Assembly (NCBI RefSeq): GCF_019977755.1
Contig: NZ_AP025145.1
Coordinates: 1,364,001 to 1,428,000, forward strand
Length of the DNA stretch: 64,000 nt
From: Vibrio penaeicida
GTDB taxonomy: Bacteria > Pseudomonadota > Gammaproteobacteria > Enterobacterales > Vibrionaceae
Direction of reading: 5' to 3'
The notes under the pieces are model-generated. The model was given only the letters and a program-made list of their open reading frames with translations, searched no databases and was not told the DNA's origin. Shown piece by piece: positions 49,274-53,885 of this stretch. The position numbers were made by a program, and so were the translations under genes. Each line of letters starts with the position of its first letter. Positions within the stretch are counted from its first letter, which is position 1.

Positions 49274-49437
49274 ACTATTCAGTTTCCTACAAAAGTTAGT
49301 CATTCAGCTTCAATTTTTTGAACCCATATGATGGACAGATTTTTACTATGCACTGAGTCTCAATTCATCACAAAAACAAATGAAATGGATTGCATTTAGT
49401 GGTCATATAAACACATTAAATCAACACGTTAATGAAT

Positions 49438-49459
49438 GTAAGGATAACTAACAATTATG
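49438..49459 (+). repeat. Left 22-bp inverted repeat (candidate recombination site)
   Basis: Begins GTAAGGATAAC and ends AACAATTATG. The AAGGA serves as ribosome site and the terminal ATG is the start codon of the NTPase gene. The centre reads ATAA-CTAACAA-TTAT, a dyad with a 7-bp spacer like the core sites of Xer-type recombinases. Confidence 0.85.
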
Positions 49460-52001
49460 AAAGGAATGTTAGATAGAAAAGTCGAGCGCGGTCATATTCA
49501 TTCTTTTCTTAATAGTTCTCCCTCAAATAGCCAGCTATTTTGGATTAATGGTCCTATAGGTTCAGGAAAAACGACTCTACTGAGGTACATTGCAGAGCGT
49601 TACGCTAATAATGTTCTATGCCTTAATGGAGAAAACAGGTTATTAAGATGCAATCAAAATGAACAAAATAAAGAATTTCATACCTTATCAACTTTGGTGA
49701 CCCATATTTCACTAAGTCATCCAATGAAGTTCCACAAGGCATTATCTATTTCAAATGATATACCTGCTCTACCGCCGCTATGGAAAATAGTTTTCAAAGT
49801 AACTAGCCTGATACCAGAGATGCAACAAGTTAATGGGCTATTTGATGGCGTAACACGGCAAGGCGAAGAGCTAGAAACTAAACTTAGAAATATTGTGACT
49901 CCAAACCTTGTGAAGGAAGCAGTTTATGACCTTATCTTGGATTTCTTTACCGAAAAAATAAAGCAGTCTAGCTTTACTGTTATTATCATTGACGACATTC
50001 AATGGATAGACCAAAGATCATTAGAAATACTACTTCCAATTATTAACGAATTATTTAACAAAAATTATGGTATTTATGTTTTTTGTCTAGTCATGATCAA
50101 TGCCCTTCTATTATAAGAGATAAGTATATAAAGGATTTGGTTTGTGACTATTTCTATAATAGTACTCAAATAATTAGCCTAGACAACTTAACTAAAAGTA
50201 AAATGTCTGAGATTTTCGGTGAAGCAAACAAAGAGCTCCCAGTTGATTTAATAGATAAAATACATAGAGAAACTGAAGGTAATTTTGAGAAGTTAGGGAA
50301 GATTTTAAGAAAAAGCAAGGAAGAAATTCATGAGATTTACGAAGAATTAGAAACCAAAAGATCAAAAGGAAGCTATTATGATGACTCCTTTCAAAAAATC
50401 ACCGAACAAAAACCTTATCTAATATATATTTTCTTTATTTTATCATCATTCAAAAATAAGTGCACCACAACGACTTTAAATATCTTGTTAGAATCTTTAT
50501 CTCTTAGGTTAAATTTTGATTATAATTCAAACCAATTGAAGCTAGATTTAAGTGATTTGGAATCATTATCTGAGTTAAAAATGTCAAACTATTTAATCGA
50601 GTGCCATACAGAAAGAAGCGAGCTAGCAATTAGAATGTTAAAGGTTCGTGGTGAATATGAGAAATCTATAATAATTTTATCTCAAATAATTATAGACTAC
50701 ACTATAGAGAATGACAGTGGATTATTAACAGTTGCATTTTCGAATCTAAAGAAAGTAAATCCAAATCTAGTTATTAATGAATTTAGAAAGTTATTATTGA
50801 ATAAATATGATTACCTATTTCATCGAGAAATAATCGTATCAATTAGTATGTCGGCACTTGAACTTAGTAACGACAAAGTAATAGAGAATTTTTCTCTTTT
50901 AACTAAACTAACAACATCCTTGGCAAGGAAAAATGAATTCCTATTAGCTTCTAAATTAGGTCGTAAATTAATAAGATTAAATACAAATAAAAATTTATCG
51001 TATAGCTTTTTGTACGACTATATGAAGTCAATGAGAGAGTCTGGACAAATTAAAAACCACAATGAAGTAAAATCTATTTATCAAGTGATGGTAAAAATGT
51101 CTACAAATTTATCAGAAAACTTGAAAGCAAAACCCTTTACTGTTCAATTCTTGAGCACTTAGGTAAATATGATTATATTAGAAAAATATATAAGGATATC
51201 GATAACAAAACTAAAGACCTAGATTTCAATAACAAAAACGACATTATAATCAATGCAATAGCAGTACGAAATAAAGGATTATCTGAGTTTCATGGTGATA
51301 TTATCAACACATATCATGACGCATACTCAATGCTAGAAAGTATATCATCAAAGGATAGAGAAATTACGCTGCTAAAAGCAGCATTAGCTAATCACTGTGG
51401 GCTTGCCAACTATTATCGAGGAAGTCAGAAAACAGTTATAGATTTTTTTGCCCAATCTCATAGTCATCTGAAAAGTTTGTCTTTGTACCTGGAAACTCCT
51501 ATAAACAACATCGCTTGTTCTCTTATATTGATGAAAGATTACAATAAAGCTTTGGACTTTATTGAAAGGGCTGAAAAATACATCTGCAAACCTATTTATC
51601 AAACACACTCAATTGCAATTAATAAGTCAATTATTTATTGGGAGCTTAATGAGAGAAAACTTGCAATTAATCAAATAGAAAAAGTTATCAATAGTAATAA
51701 CATTCCTGACCCAATGATACTTGCTACTGCTAATGTAAACTATGGATACTTTCTATTTAAAGAAAACAAGTTTCATGAGGCGGCATTAAAATTTAAGGAG
51801 TCAAGAAAATTTAAATATAGATCTCTTCATAATGAGTATAAATTTGTTGAATCAAAACTTGAGAAACTATGTTTGATCAAAGATGGTTTTCTCAGCTCAG
51901 AAGACTTAGGTGACGTATCTTTGATCGACTTTAAGGATGTGTTATCAATACCACACAGAAAAATATATAGACCCGATACTAATTCATTGTATGTCGATTA
52001 A
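49457..52001 (+). pseudogene. STAND-type NTPase with TPR-like C-terminus, two frameshifts
   Basis: Would be about 848 residues. Walker A GPIGSGKTT (32-40) and Walker B VIIIDDIQWID (about 173-183) mark an AAA_16/NACHT-like P-loop; the C-terminal half is helical with TPR-like repeats (YNKALDFIERAEKYI, FHEAALKFKESRKF). Frames: 49457-50116, 50083-51162 and one open from about 51130 to 52001. Adding one T to T6 (50079-50084) gives YGIYVFLSSHDQCPSII, and adding one A to the A4 near 51127-51130 gives AKTLYCSILEHLGKY, restoring one continuous protein. Very A+T-rich, horizontally acquired. STAND proteins often act as threat sensors. Confidence 0.75.
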
Positions 52002-52847
52002 TCTTTTATATAACAATGATTTTAATATACTGCTATTTCGTGATTGCTTTTGTAAATCAGTTTTTAAAGTACTCTTAAGTGAGTGTTCAAATAAATTTAT
52101 AACTGGTTTGGCATGTATTATATGAATGGATGATTTGATGTTGTTATACTCTAAACTAAGTTTGAAGTATGGGGAATTTCTTTCATAATCGACGATATCT
52201 TCGTCAAAAAATATAACATCAAATTTTTTTAATTCAGTGCAGCTAAATAAATCATAATTATCGCTGTAGAATGGTGACCTTACTTCAACTTTATTACCTT
52301 TCCACTTTTTTAAACCTTCAACAAGTGAATTGACACATCTTTTGGGTTCAACTGCTACGACTAATACATTTAAGTCATTTAGTTTTTTTGTATTTTTATA
52401 TATACTGGACAAATAATTAATAGCCGTTGTTGGATGAGATTTTTGTCCATGTCCGGCAGATATCACTGGAACACTAGAACCTTGAATAAGGTCATCAAAG
52501 TAAGATTTAGAATTGCAACGTATAGCTATTAGGTCAACATATTGGCTAATATAACCAGTTATACCAGACAGTGGCTCATTGGACATGTTTTTTTCTATTA
52601 ACTTTTCATACATATCAAAACTCAAATGAGACCCTCCCAATCTTAAAAATGAGGAAACAAACCCAGCTCTAGTTCTTAAGCTATCAGATACAAATAAAGT
52701 TGCTAGAATTTTAGAACGTAGTGAATATGCATTTTCATGATAATAATCTTTAATTGTTGCTTCATTTCTACAAATATCCAATAATTCAAAGACTGTAGAT
52801 TCTATCTGATCTTTAGATATGTCTTTTATACTAACGAAATGATCCAT
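51984..52847 (-). CDS. Aspartate/ornithine carbamoyltransferase-fold protein, atypical
   Basis: 287 residues. The catalytic-subunit plan of ATCase/OTCase is visible: SDSLRTRAGF (56-63, equivalent of S-T-R-T-R), Arg110 in DLIAIRCNS, SAGHGQKSHPTTAINYL (His138), a second Rossmann-like half (LNVLVVAVEPKRCVNSLVEGL), HAKPV (245-249, place of HPLPR/HPGPV) and a C-terminal helix like QAxNGxxxRMALL. The carbamoyl-phosphate site is partly kept (Arg, Thr, His), but Thr of STRTR is Leu, HPTQ is HPTT, and the second-substrate motifs are changed. So a different or lost activity is likely. Start codon and ribosome site lie in the right inverted repeat, 15 bp after the recombinase stop. Confidence 0.72.
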   Translation of the reverse strand: MDHFVSIKDISKDQIESTVFELLDICRNEATIKDYYHENAYSLRSKILATLFVSDSLRTRAGFVSSFLRLGGSHLSFDMYEKLIEKNMSNEPLSGITGYISQYVDLIAIRCNSKSYFDDLIQGSSVPVISAGHGQKSHPTTAINYLSSIYKNTKKLNDLNVLVVAVEPKRCVNSLVEGLKKWKGNKVEVRSPFYSDNYDLFSCTELKKFDVIFFDEDIVDYERNSPYFKLSLEYNNIKSSIHIIHAKPVINLFEHSLKSTLKTDLQKQSRNSSILKSLLYKRLIDIQ

Positions 52848-52866
52848 AATTGTTAGTTATCCTTAC
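52845..52866 (-). repeat. Right 22-bp inverted repeat (candidate recombination site)
   Basis: Exact reverse complement of 49438-49459. Read on the minus strand it contains, in order, the TAA stop of the recombinase, the AAGGA ribosome site and the ATG of the carbamoyltransferase-fold gene. Bases on both sides differ between the two copies, so the identity is confined to 22 bp. Confidence 0.85.
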
Positions 52867-53885
52867 TTTTTCATTATGGCACTCCTGAGGTTTGATTTTT
52901 GTAGTTTCTGTTGGAGTAAAGTGTCGGATACGTGAGTATAGATTTCGGTTGTTGAAATACTGCTGTGCCCCAACAGTTTTTGTACGTATCTCATGTCTAC
53001 ACCGGCCGCTAGAAACTCACACGCAGCACTATGGCGAAACATATGAGGAGTGGCTTTAAGATTGGAATTGGTTTGGTTTGAAATATTTCGAACTAACTTT
53101 CTTGTAAATTGTGTTGAAGCTGGTTTTCCACGGCTATTAACCAAGAAGTTGTCGTGCTGAGGTTCAACTACGTGTCTTAATTCAATGTAACGCCTAATTA
53201 AGGTGCACAACTCGTTATCTAAAATATAAACAAAGCGTTCTCTAGAGCCCTTACCCATAATCTTAATCTTCTTCTCAGGCAAGCTGACATCGTCTAGTTT
53301 TATTCCCGCTAGCTCTCCTACTCTGACCCCTGTCGTAACAAGTAGCTCGACTACAACAAGCGCGGTGAAGTGATTTAAACCTTTCCCATTTTGAATATGT
53401 TTATCTATAAATGGCTGTTTTCTATCTTCACCTGTATTTGTCGAAGATCTTGCTTGGTTTAGAATAGATTTCAAATCGGACTTTGCAATGTTTCTGGGGA
53501 GATGCTTTGGTAGCTTTAAATTGAGTACAAACTTGTGGAAAGGGCTTGCATCAATGTGTTCTTCAATTTCTAGCCAAGAAAACATCGCCTTAGCGCATGC
53601 TAACTTCCTCTTTATCGAAGTTGGTTTAAGTTGATTTTGGGTAAGATAATCAAGAAACTTTGAAATGGAATGCTTATCGATATCCTTCAGCAAAACATTT
53701 ATGCCAAGGCATTCCATCAATTGACGTAAGTCGATGCGATACGCTTTAATCGTATACGACGATAACCCTCTGATATCCTTGCAGTGTGATAAATATCTTT
53801 CGGTTGCTTCAATCAAAGTGTACATGGGCTCTCCAGTTTTATGTTCGTGCTGGTATCGAAAATGCCCTTTTAACAAATCTATCAT
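52863..53885 (-). CDS. Tyrosine recombinase (XerC/D-like integrase)
   Basis: 340 residues: N-terminal SAM-like core-binding domain (about 21-110) and a catalytic domain with every active residue present: Arg188 in TTGVRVGEL, Lys212 in MGKGSRERF, His281 and Arg284 in HMFRHS, His307 in LGHSS, nucleophile Tyr316 in TEIYTHV. It ends exactly in the right 22-bp repeat and reads into the neighbouring gene. Its GC is intermediate and its sequence is undamaged, unlike the NTPase. Probably catalyses inversion between the 22-bp repeats, or integration of the whole island. Alternative start: the ATG at 53825 (MYTLIEATERYL). Confidence 0.92.
   Translation of the reverse strand: MIDLLKGHFRYQHEHKTGEPMYTLIEATERYLSHCKDIRGLSSYTIKAYRIDLRQLMECLGINVLLKDIDKHSISKFLDYLTQNQLKPTSIKRKLACAKAMFSWLEIEEHIDASPFHKFVLNLKLPKHLPRNIAKSDLKSILNQARSSTNTGEDRKQPFIDKHIQNGKGLNHFTALVVVELLVTTGVRVGELAGIKLDDVSLPEKKIKIMGKGSRERFVYILDNELCTLIRRYIELRHVVEPQHDNFLVNSRGKPASTQFTRKLVRNISNQTNSNLKATPHMFRHSAACEFLAAGVDMRYVQKLLGHSSISTTEIYTHVSDTLLQQKLQKSNLRSAIMKK

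Follow-up and report, generated by a model that had tools for sequence, protein, structure and literature searches.

A candidate invertible two-gene cassette beside a tyrosine recombinase in Vibrio penaeicida and related bacteria

Introduction

Most DNA-inversion switches known so far concern surface proteins, promoters or the specificity of DNA methylation. Whether such a device may also choose between two whole, unrelated genes is the question raised by a locus of Vibrio penaeicida that lies in a stretch of 64,000 nucleotides (contig NZ_AP025145.1, positions 1,364,001 to 1,428,000; hereafter, the window). Here a low-G+C segment bounded by short inverted repeats holds the genes of a STAND-type NTPase and a carbamoyltransferase-like enzyme, and an adjacent gene encodes a tyrosine recombinase. 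An earlier interpretation made from the letters alone (hereafter, the sequence-only reading) proposed a switch. Comparison with related genomes leads us to conclude, with a probability of about 0.82, that the adjacent recombinase operates the locus as an invertible cassette of two genes. It belongs to an apparently undescribed family of probable genetic switches, in which the same device carries different gene pairs in related bacteria.

Results and discussion

Exact repeats enclose two convergent genes

The arms of the repeat (Table 1) are exact reverse complements over 22 nt, and 96% identical over 25 nt, with 3385 nt between the 25-nt arms. Twenty-two nucleotides is also the longest exact inverted repeat in the 12-kb region with arms at least 200 nt apart, as against 11–18 nt in surrogates (200 order-1 Markov sequences of the same 12 kb, under the same spacing), and the 20-nt core of the repeat has no further copy in the 6.78-Mb genome when up to three mismatches are allowed. 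The G+C content is 0.30 in the segment, 0.43 in about 12.6 kb of flanks and 0.39 in the recombinase gene. The sequence-only reading is borne out on the exact repeat and the low-G+C segment, and equally where it placed a ribosome-binding site and the ATG of the inner gene in each repeat (both arms contain AAGGA and an ATG) and the stop codon of an intact, inward-reading recombinase gene in the right one. It also described the two genes as convergent, which in their order they are, tail to tail, but it overlooked two frame breaks that split the STAND gene (frames 49457-50116, 50083-51162 and 51330-52001). The homologue in the sister strain V. penaeicida 6E01 is a single frame of 848 amino acids; the breaks would reflect either recent decay or sequencing errors.

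Both junctions are present in the assembly of a sister strain

Inversion is well supported in 6E01 (G171; same contigs as L038/G196), whose DNA is 95.7% identical to the window's over 8.5 kb. Contig C11 of its assembly starts with the site and the STAND gene and contains recombinase, site and carbamoyltransferase gene in the arrangement of the window; contig C25 joins the left flank, the site and the carbamoyltransferase gene, the inverted arrangement. The sequence-only reading had advised a search of relatives for the opposite orientation, and here it is. The final 77 nt of C25, which run from the first nucleotide of the 22-nt site onward, recur in C11, as expected from a de Bruijn assembler (k = 77, its identity being assumed) where two flanks meet one segment end. 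A circular copy of the segment would not give such a junction between the left flank and the carbamoyltransferase gene.

Assembly breaks at the sites of other relatives point in the same direction. Among the 11 cassette-bearing drafts, six (G171, G1251, G1263, G1319, G829 and G1073) have a contig end at a site or at most 106 nt from one, where contig numbers (rounded figures) predict about 0.25 drafts (P ~2e-8 under a simple independent model); G1082, G1327, G1121, G690 and G1070 have no break at their sites. With overlaps counted from the printed contig ends, G1251 has exactly the same 24-nt site in its recombinase contig, in its far-flank contig and at either end of a segment contig of 6.2 kb that stands alone. 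The lone 3.7-kb segment contig of G1319 shares 21 nt at both ends with the recombinase contig, the far flank not having been found, and the lone 6.9-kb segment contig of G1263 overlaps both flank contigs by 127 nt from the site onward. Both flank contigs of G829 end 55 nt past the start of their shared 19 nt. The lone-segment contigs of G1251, G1263 and G1319 are consistent with both orientations. The earlier claim that a site-specific recombinase inverts the segment thus draws strong support from relatives (the 6E01 junction, these breaks and the matched site centres described next) rather than from the window strain itself, to which inversion would extend by homology.

Sites that would serve as crossover points and gene starts

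The sites of all loci follow the pattern ATAA-CTANNAA-TTAT inside GTAAGGATAACTANNAATTATG, with a 7-nt centre (CTANNAA) between the arms ATAA and TTAT. The two central nucleotides vary between loci (AC, GT, AT, AG or GG) and are identical within a locus in 16 of 16 cases, an agreement reached by 0 of 100000 permutations (15 loci, the sister duplicate removed). Because 10 of these 15 loci have GG, the information on the matching of centres comes from the other five. Outside the centre, paired sites differ at 0–4 of 22 positions. The start codons of the 22 outer genes in 11 loci, as given by the frame finder (two are TTG), overlap the site in 15 cases and lie 4 nt further in six; the near gene of G1147 is the exception and starts elsewhere. 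At their other ends the convergent genes overlap by 9–67 nt in 10 of 15 distinct cassettes (the window and 6E01 taken as one) and are 3–8 nt apart in the remaining five. The far site is mostly intergenic among the loci examined.

A start codon and Shine-Dalgarno-like letters are part of every site and might be conserved for translation, and the composition of the segment is foreign, so that one might see here an ordinary composite mobile element, or conserved translation-start signals, with nothing inverting. Variable but matched centres are unexpected for translation signals, however, and this explanation is further opposed by the opposite junction of 6E01, the breaks in 6 of 11 drafts, the persistence of the site beside the recombinase where the segment differs, and a Pfam scan that detected no transposase in the cassette proteins it covered. 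We consider it very improbable.

Under the preferred reading, of an invertible cassette, the recombinase would recombine the two inverted sites and turn over the 3.4-kb segment between them. Since the sites double as translation starts and the near site comes directly after the recombinase stop codon, inversion would swap the gene that is cotranscribed with the recombinase. No sequence would be lost: one gene would be co-transcribed with the recombinase and the other would stand at the far end beside chromosomal DNA. Tail-to-tail contact leaves no space for a terminator. Strong transcription of one gene would therefore enter the other, and such run-in would favour alternate over joint expression. 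We infer this recombinase as the catalyst, the exact positions of cleavage and the consequence for expression; the purpose would presumably be heterogeneous cell states in a clonal population.

Table 1. Features of the V. penaeicida locus, in window coordinates.
Feature	Position	Strand	Remarks
Far flank, intergenic	49304..49437	+	separates divergent LD-carboxypeptidase gene from far site
Far (left) recombination site, putative, GTAAGGATAACTAACAATTATG	49438..49459	+	AAGGA (Shine-Dalgarno-like) and STAND ATG at 49457
STAND NTPase/TPR gene	49457..52001	+	broken into three frames; intact in V. penaeicida 6E01
Carbamoyltransferase-like gene, 287 aa	51984..52847	-	aspartate-transcarbamoylase fold; 3' end overlaps STAND frame by 18 nt
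Near (right) recombination site, putative	52845..52866	-	recombinase stop codon, AAGGA (Shine-Dalgarno-like), carbamoyltransferase-like ATG (52847)
Tyrosine recombinase gene, 340 aa, intact	52863..53885	-	presumed inversion catalyst

The recombinase and its relatives

The recombinase matches the Pfam family Phage_integrase (123 bits), and R188, K212, H281, R284, H307 and Y316, which we take to be the R-K-H-R-H-Y catalytic residues of tyrosine recombinases, are invariant in an alignment of 27 sequences. Its ratio of nonsynonymous to synonymous substitutions (dN/dS) relative to the sister strain is 0.08, indicating purifying selection. NCBIfam tests were made on the sister-strain protein, which is 98% identical to the window's. 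It is not an integron integrase IntI (TIGR02249, 86.1 bits against a cut-off of 265), and it misses the cut-offs of the XerC, XerD and XerA equivalogs (207.6 of 335.15, 201.4 of 329.6 and 187.7 of 220 bits). PADLOC gave no match for the window recombinase.

Related recombinases were found in 19 genomes, own included, among them V. gazogenes (G111), V. quintilis (G157) and Paraneptunicella aestuarii (G1110). They turned up in 4 of 227 genomes in the genus search, own included (E <= 1e-50), in the same four of 329 in the family search (E <= 1e-70), in the own genome only of 394 in an order sample (E <= 1e-85; five candidates per genome scored), in 3 of 369 in a class sample (own, G690 and G829; E <= 1e-70) and in 13 of 395 genomes of the marine family of G335, taken as Alteromonadaceae (E <= 1e-85). 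A tree of 22 recombinases unites the 19 in one clade (100/98), apart from three other tyrosine recombinases of the genome, which serve as comparison and have long branches; sister pairs within the clade are G1121/G1147, G1263/G1319 and G111/G157. Plasmids held no match to the recombinase (tblastn, E <= 1e-50). The best of 57 recombinase loci in viral contigs is 38% identical, and the two of the 57 that were scanned have no site-like inverted repeats. Four single matches of the site pattern in viral contigs, among which no pair was found, were taken as chance.

Behind the recombinase stands the site GATAAYTANNAATTAT, with at most two changes, in 18 of 19 genomes, at 5–15 nt past the aligned recombinase end in 17 and at 69 nt in G829. 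An inverted pair of sites is present on one contig in 16 of 19 genomes, own included; G829 and G1073 have a single site on each of two contigs, and G1251, G1263 and G1319 have their lone segment contigs bounded by both sites. The whole segment is on one contig in 11 of the 18 relatives' loci examined, and all 11 have one site behind the recombinase, a second, inverted site 1.7–3.9 kb on and convergent genes inside. Convergence holds for all 15 distinct cassettes read, 13 with two genes and two with three. The G+C content of the segment is below that of the flanks in 10 of 11 loci and equal to it in one (L137). Of the 19 genomes, one (G1082) matches the 16-nt pattern exactly at yet another place outside the pair. 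Judged by these sequences, the window locus is a member of a family of related recombinase and site-pair loci; the sequence-only reading missed this membership and the variation of gene pairs among the relatives.

Different gene pairs lie between the same sites

Comparison of close relatives indicates that sister recombinases carry unrelated gene pairs and that their homology breaks off at the sites. Both flanks (66-77% identity) and the recombinase are common to V. gazogenes and V. quintilis, whereas their segment interiors do not match. The recombinases of G1287 and G1263 are 71% identical and 6.7 kb of their far flanks 67%, but the segments share only the sites. Similarly, G1263 and G1319 are 84% identical up to the near site and have only the sites of their segments in common, the far flank of G1319 being unseen. 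G1121 and G1147 are 84.6% identical from the recombinase up to and including the near site, have interiors without match (about 3.4 and 2.2 kb), and become homologous again at the far site for about 80 nt. In contrast to these swapped pairs, G1110 and G1082 have kept the same one. Over evolutionary time, the recombinase and its sites would thus also act as a slot in which a whole gene pair is replaced.

The homology between G1121 and G1147 extends no more than 72 nt ahead of the recombinase and about 78 nt past the far site, apart from one 282-nt stretch that matches in the opposite orientation. This speaks against a fixed place for the pair. With limits only some 75 nt from the recombinase start on one side and from the far site on the other, the whole module, comprising recombinase, sites and short ends, may have moved together as a unit.

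Should the locus then be seen as a gene-acquisition slot or mobile module, a natural, integron-like cassette-exchange site in which inversion is a side reaction without regulatory meaning? Pairs that differ exactly between the sites (G1121/G1147; V. gazogenes/V. quintilis), the possible movement of the G1121/G1147 module as a whole, the lower G+C content of the segment in 10 of 11 loci and an empty site in one genome (G1178) all fit such a slot. Yet the cassettes are convergent in 15 of 15 cases and never form an array, and acquisition alone would not require the retention of gene starts at the sites and of tail-to-tail contact. This alternative is possible, if doubtful.

Possible bias or decay of the switch

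Several observations weigh against the invertible cassette, or at least against a freely symmetric one. The evidence for both orientations comes from assemblies, although chimaeras or a mixed culture are unlikely. A single orientation is seen in seven finished or near-finished genomes (G000, G111, G157, G1110, G1287, G1147 and G1174) and in four drafts (G1082, G1327, G1121 and G690); in finished genomes, this is what a consensus would show anyway. Stray matches to the site with one mismatch occur elsewhere in 4 of 11 loci (L135, L038, L048 and L147). The recombinase of G1070 has no adjacent site, an orphan cassette lying on another contig of the same draft, and that of G1178 has an empty palindromic double site without genes (L138 2410-2436). 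The far flank would have to supply the promoter of whichever gene sits at the far site, and none was recognised in the window; no sigma-70 type promoter upstream of the far site beats shuffled sequences in 16 flanks (p 0.13-0.88). The STAND gene stands at the far site in all six STAND cassettes with both flanks on one contig, and it is broken in the window genome.

The sequence-only reading expected inversion to place either gene directly behind the recombinase, and this is what the sequence would give; the strict either/or expression that it drew from this fares less well, given the lack of a convincing far-site promoter and the STAND gene's far position in six of six. That constancy may point to a bias in the switch. 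A biased or directional system, with the enzyme behind the recombinase and the STAND gene far as the working state and the other state rare or transient, triggered for instance by stress or phage, would account for the six loci concerned (G000, G111, G157, G1327, G1121 and G1174) and for G1263, where contig overlaps pair the recombinase with an enzyme and the far flank with a SIR2-NACHT protein. However, 6E01 has both junctions and the contigs of G1251 and G1319 cannot be ordered, which implies an alternative state common enough to disturb assembly, and a fair switch would show the same orientation six times with a two-sided probability of 0.03 if the loci were independent, a mild improbability in genomes that share ancestry. 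We regard this system as a serious, though not the favoured, possibility.

The two frame breaks, in turn, would be at home in a decaying remnant. Opposed to this are the identity of the window's two sites and the constraint visible in dN/dS relative to the sister strain, which is 0.19, 0.23 and 0.10 for the STAND pieces (purifying selection) and similarly low for the recombinase; decay of the window copy is an unlikely explanation.

The G1178 double site reads GTAAGGATAATT-AGG-AATTATCCTTAC, and the empty slot may represent either the state before acquisition of a gene pair or that after its loss. The orphan cassette of G1070 (L185 5775-7548, G1070:C11) has two inverted sites around a membrane protein gene opposed to a UbiA-like gene. 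Together with the siteless, matching recombinase of that draft, it makes action in trans possible.

Gene pairs carried by the family

The pairs often set an enzyme against a STAND-like or membrane protein. Named as near gene and far gene, they are an aspartate transcarbamoylase (ATCase)-like gene and STAND in the window and 6E01; ATP-grasp and STAND-like in G111, G1121 and G1174; a tRNA-editing-domain protein plus ATP-grasp and STAND-like in G1327; SHMT-like and a STAND-like protein with membrane segments in G157; a PAP2 phosphatase and a 347-aa membrane protein in G1110 and G1082; a 243-aa protein and CHAT-EamA in G1287; a membrane protein and a KAS III-like protein in G1147; and a glycosyltransferase and a 226-aa protein in G690. 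Where contigs cannot be ordered, a NodU-type carbamoyltransferase faces a 384-aa protein and a STAND-like protein (G1251), and an SHMT-like protein faces a STAND-like one (G1319). Contig overlaps in G1263 place a pyridoxal phosphate (PLP) decarboxylase-like gene beside the recombinase and SIR2-NACHT beside the far flank.

The STAND label varies in its basis. P-loop families reach the Pfam cut-off clearly only in 6E01/window and G1263, and borderline in G1121 (27.0 of 27); matches are below cut-off in G111, G157, G1174 and G1251 and lacking in G1327 and G1319. G111, G157, G1174, G1251 and G1319 contain a strict Walker A pattern, which G1327 and G1121 lack, and the G1327 protein resembles that of G1121 (21% over 866 columns, E 1e-15).

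For the window pair, the phage defence hinted at in the sequence-only reading has weak backing, as PADLOC gives a single match for the STAND protein (mad8, 24 bits) and none for the carbamoyltransferase, although the cassette of one relative encodes a SIR2-NACHT protein. PADLOC matches are weak across the cassettes except for the SIR2 (55.6 bits) and CHAT (61 bits) proteins. The family's clearest defence-like cargo is the 1398-aa SIR2-NACHT protein of G1263 (L183 2712-6908), opposite an 894-aa PLP decarboxylase-like protein.

Relation to known systems

A literature search found no description of such a device; subscription papers and preprints lay outside it. Phage Mu has, on its invertible G segment, opposed homologous tail-fibre genes, of which the one beside a fixed promoter is expressed, and inversion is by the serine recombinase Gin. 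The likeness is in two opposed alternatives on one invertible segment, but the Mu pair is not known to be exchanged between hosts. Shufflons and the mycoplasma vsa and vpma loci use a tyrosine recombinase and short inverted sites, and a site near the gene start moves genes into the expression position; they hold many related variants of one gene, whereas each locus here has two non-homologous sides. Like an integron, the present loci have interchangeable low-G+C genes that follow a resident tyrosine recombinase; unlike one, they have two inverted sites around one gene pair and no directly repeated site array (11 of 11 complete loci). The RecV switches of Clostridioides difficile invert promoter or leader DNA and are not known to turn over a gene pair. 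Site-specific inversion is reported for C. difficile, where the two states coexist in a clonal population and some switches need RecV (PMC5903667, PMC2784873).

The nearest analogue appears to be the alternating genes of Ureaplasma. Opposed genes of the mba/UU376 locus and the UU172 element alternate in expression as DNA is inverted at short inverted repeats, of 21 nt at mba, the shared 5' part of mba can be fused to either gene, and the products are surface or membrane proteins (PMC3047005). The same report mentions Xer-like recombinases of mycoplasma loci and suspects them in Ureaplasma, where the recombinase is not established (PMC3047005). By comparison with mba, the loci described here would swap unrelated whole genes, have the start codon in the site and the recombinase next to it, and carry a pair that varies between species.

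If correct, the reading as an invertible cassette would unite phase variation with cassette exchange in a single compact device and reveal a site-based route to new conflict or signalling gene pairs. It would also allow a test of the idea that STAND proteins are opposed partners of small-molecule enzymes, and a site that doubles as recombination site and translation start may serve as a laboratory tool. The boldest reading of function is that of a maker/responder or self-recognition pair. Marine Gammaproteobacteria would then possess a 'flip-slot', a resident recombinase with an exchangeable, mutually exclusive pair in which a maker or modifier of a small molecule or surface compound is set against a STAND (NLR-like) or membrane sensor or responder; clonal cells would split heritably into two identities (e.g., maker and responder), and pairs would be traded between strains at the same sites. 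We think this improbable; if true, it would give bacteria an equivalent of a mating-type or allorecognition locus.

Properties of the carried proteins

The carbamoyltransferase-like protein matches the Pfam family OTCace_N. Its AlphaFold model (predicted local distance difference test score, pLDDT, 87.9) has the two-domain ATCase fold, and the listed Protein Data Bank matches of the model are ATCases, with template modelling scores (TM) of 0.72-0.80. Residues that we assume to bind carbamoyl phosphate are kept (S56, R58-T59-R60, R110, H138, P139 and T140, that is SxRTR, arginine 110 and HPT). The HPLPR and RxQKERF motifs of ATCases, presumably the aspartate side, are absent from the window enzyme and its four closest relatives. 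Because the aspartate-side motifs are gone, the enzyme should carbamoylate something other than aspartate. The sister protein misses the equivalog cut-offs of ATCase and ornithine transcarbamoylase (93.3 of 263 and 68.7 of 280.85 bits). The gene is under purifying selection (dN/dS relative to the sister strain 0.18). A genome scan with this protein returned one locus, in V. penaeicida only; other matches of the genus search (~30% identical) resemble housekeeping carbamoyltransferases and were not considered further.

The first piece of the window STAND gene matches the Pfam family AAA_16. The intact 6E01 protein has no homologue outside its own cluster among 7999 scored candidates, and no solved structural relative of the STAND protein was found.

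In G1327, a gene for a 140-aa aminoacyl-tRNA-editing-domain protein (L137 2439-2861) lies ahead of the ATP-grasp gene, and the two products might act on amino acids or aminoacyl-tRNA. Marinomonas mediterranea has a related recombinase (53% identical) and an ATCase-like protein (52% identical), both listed with a contig of 4712557 bases.

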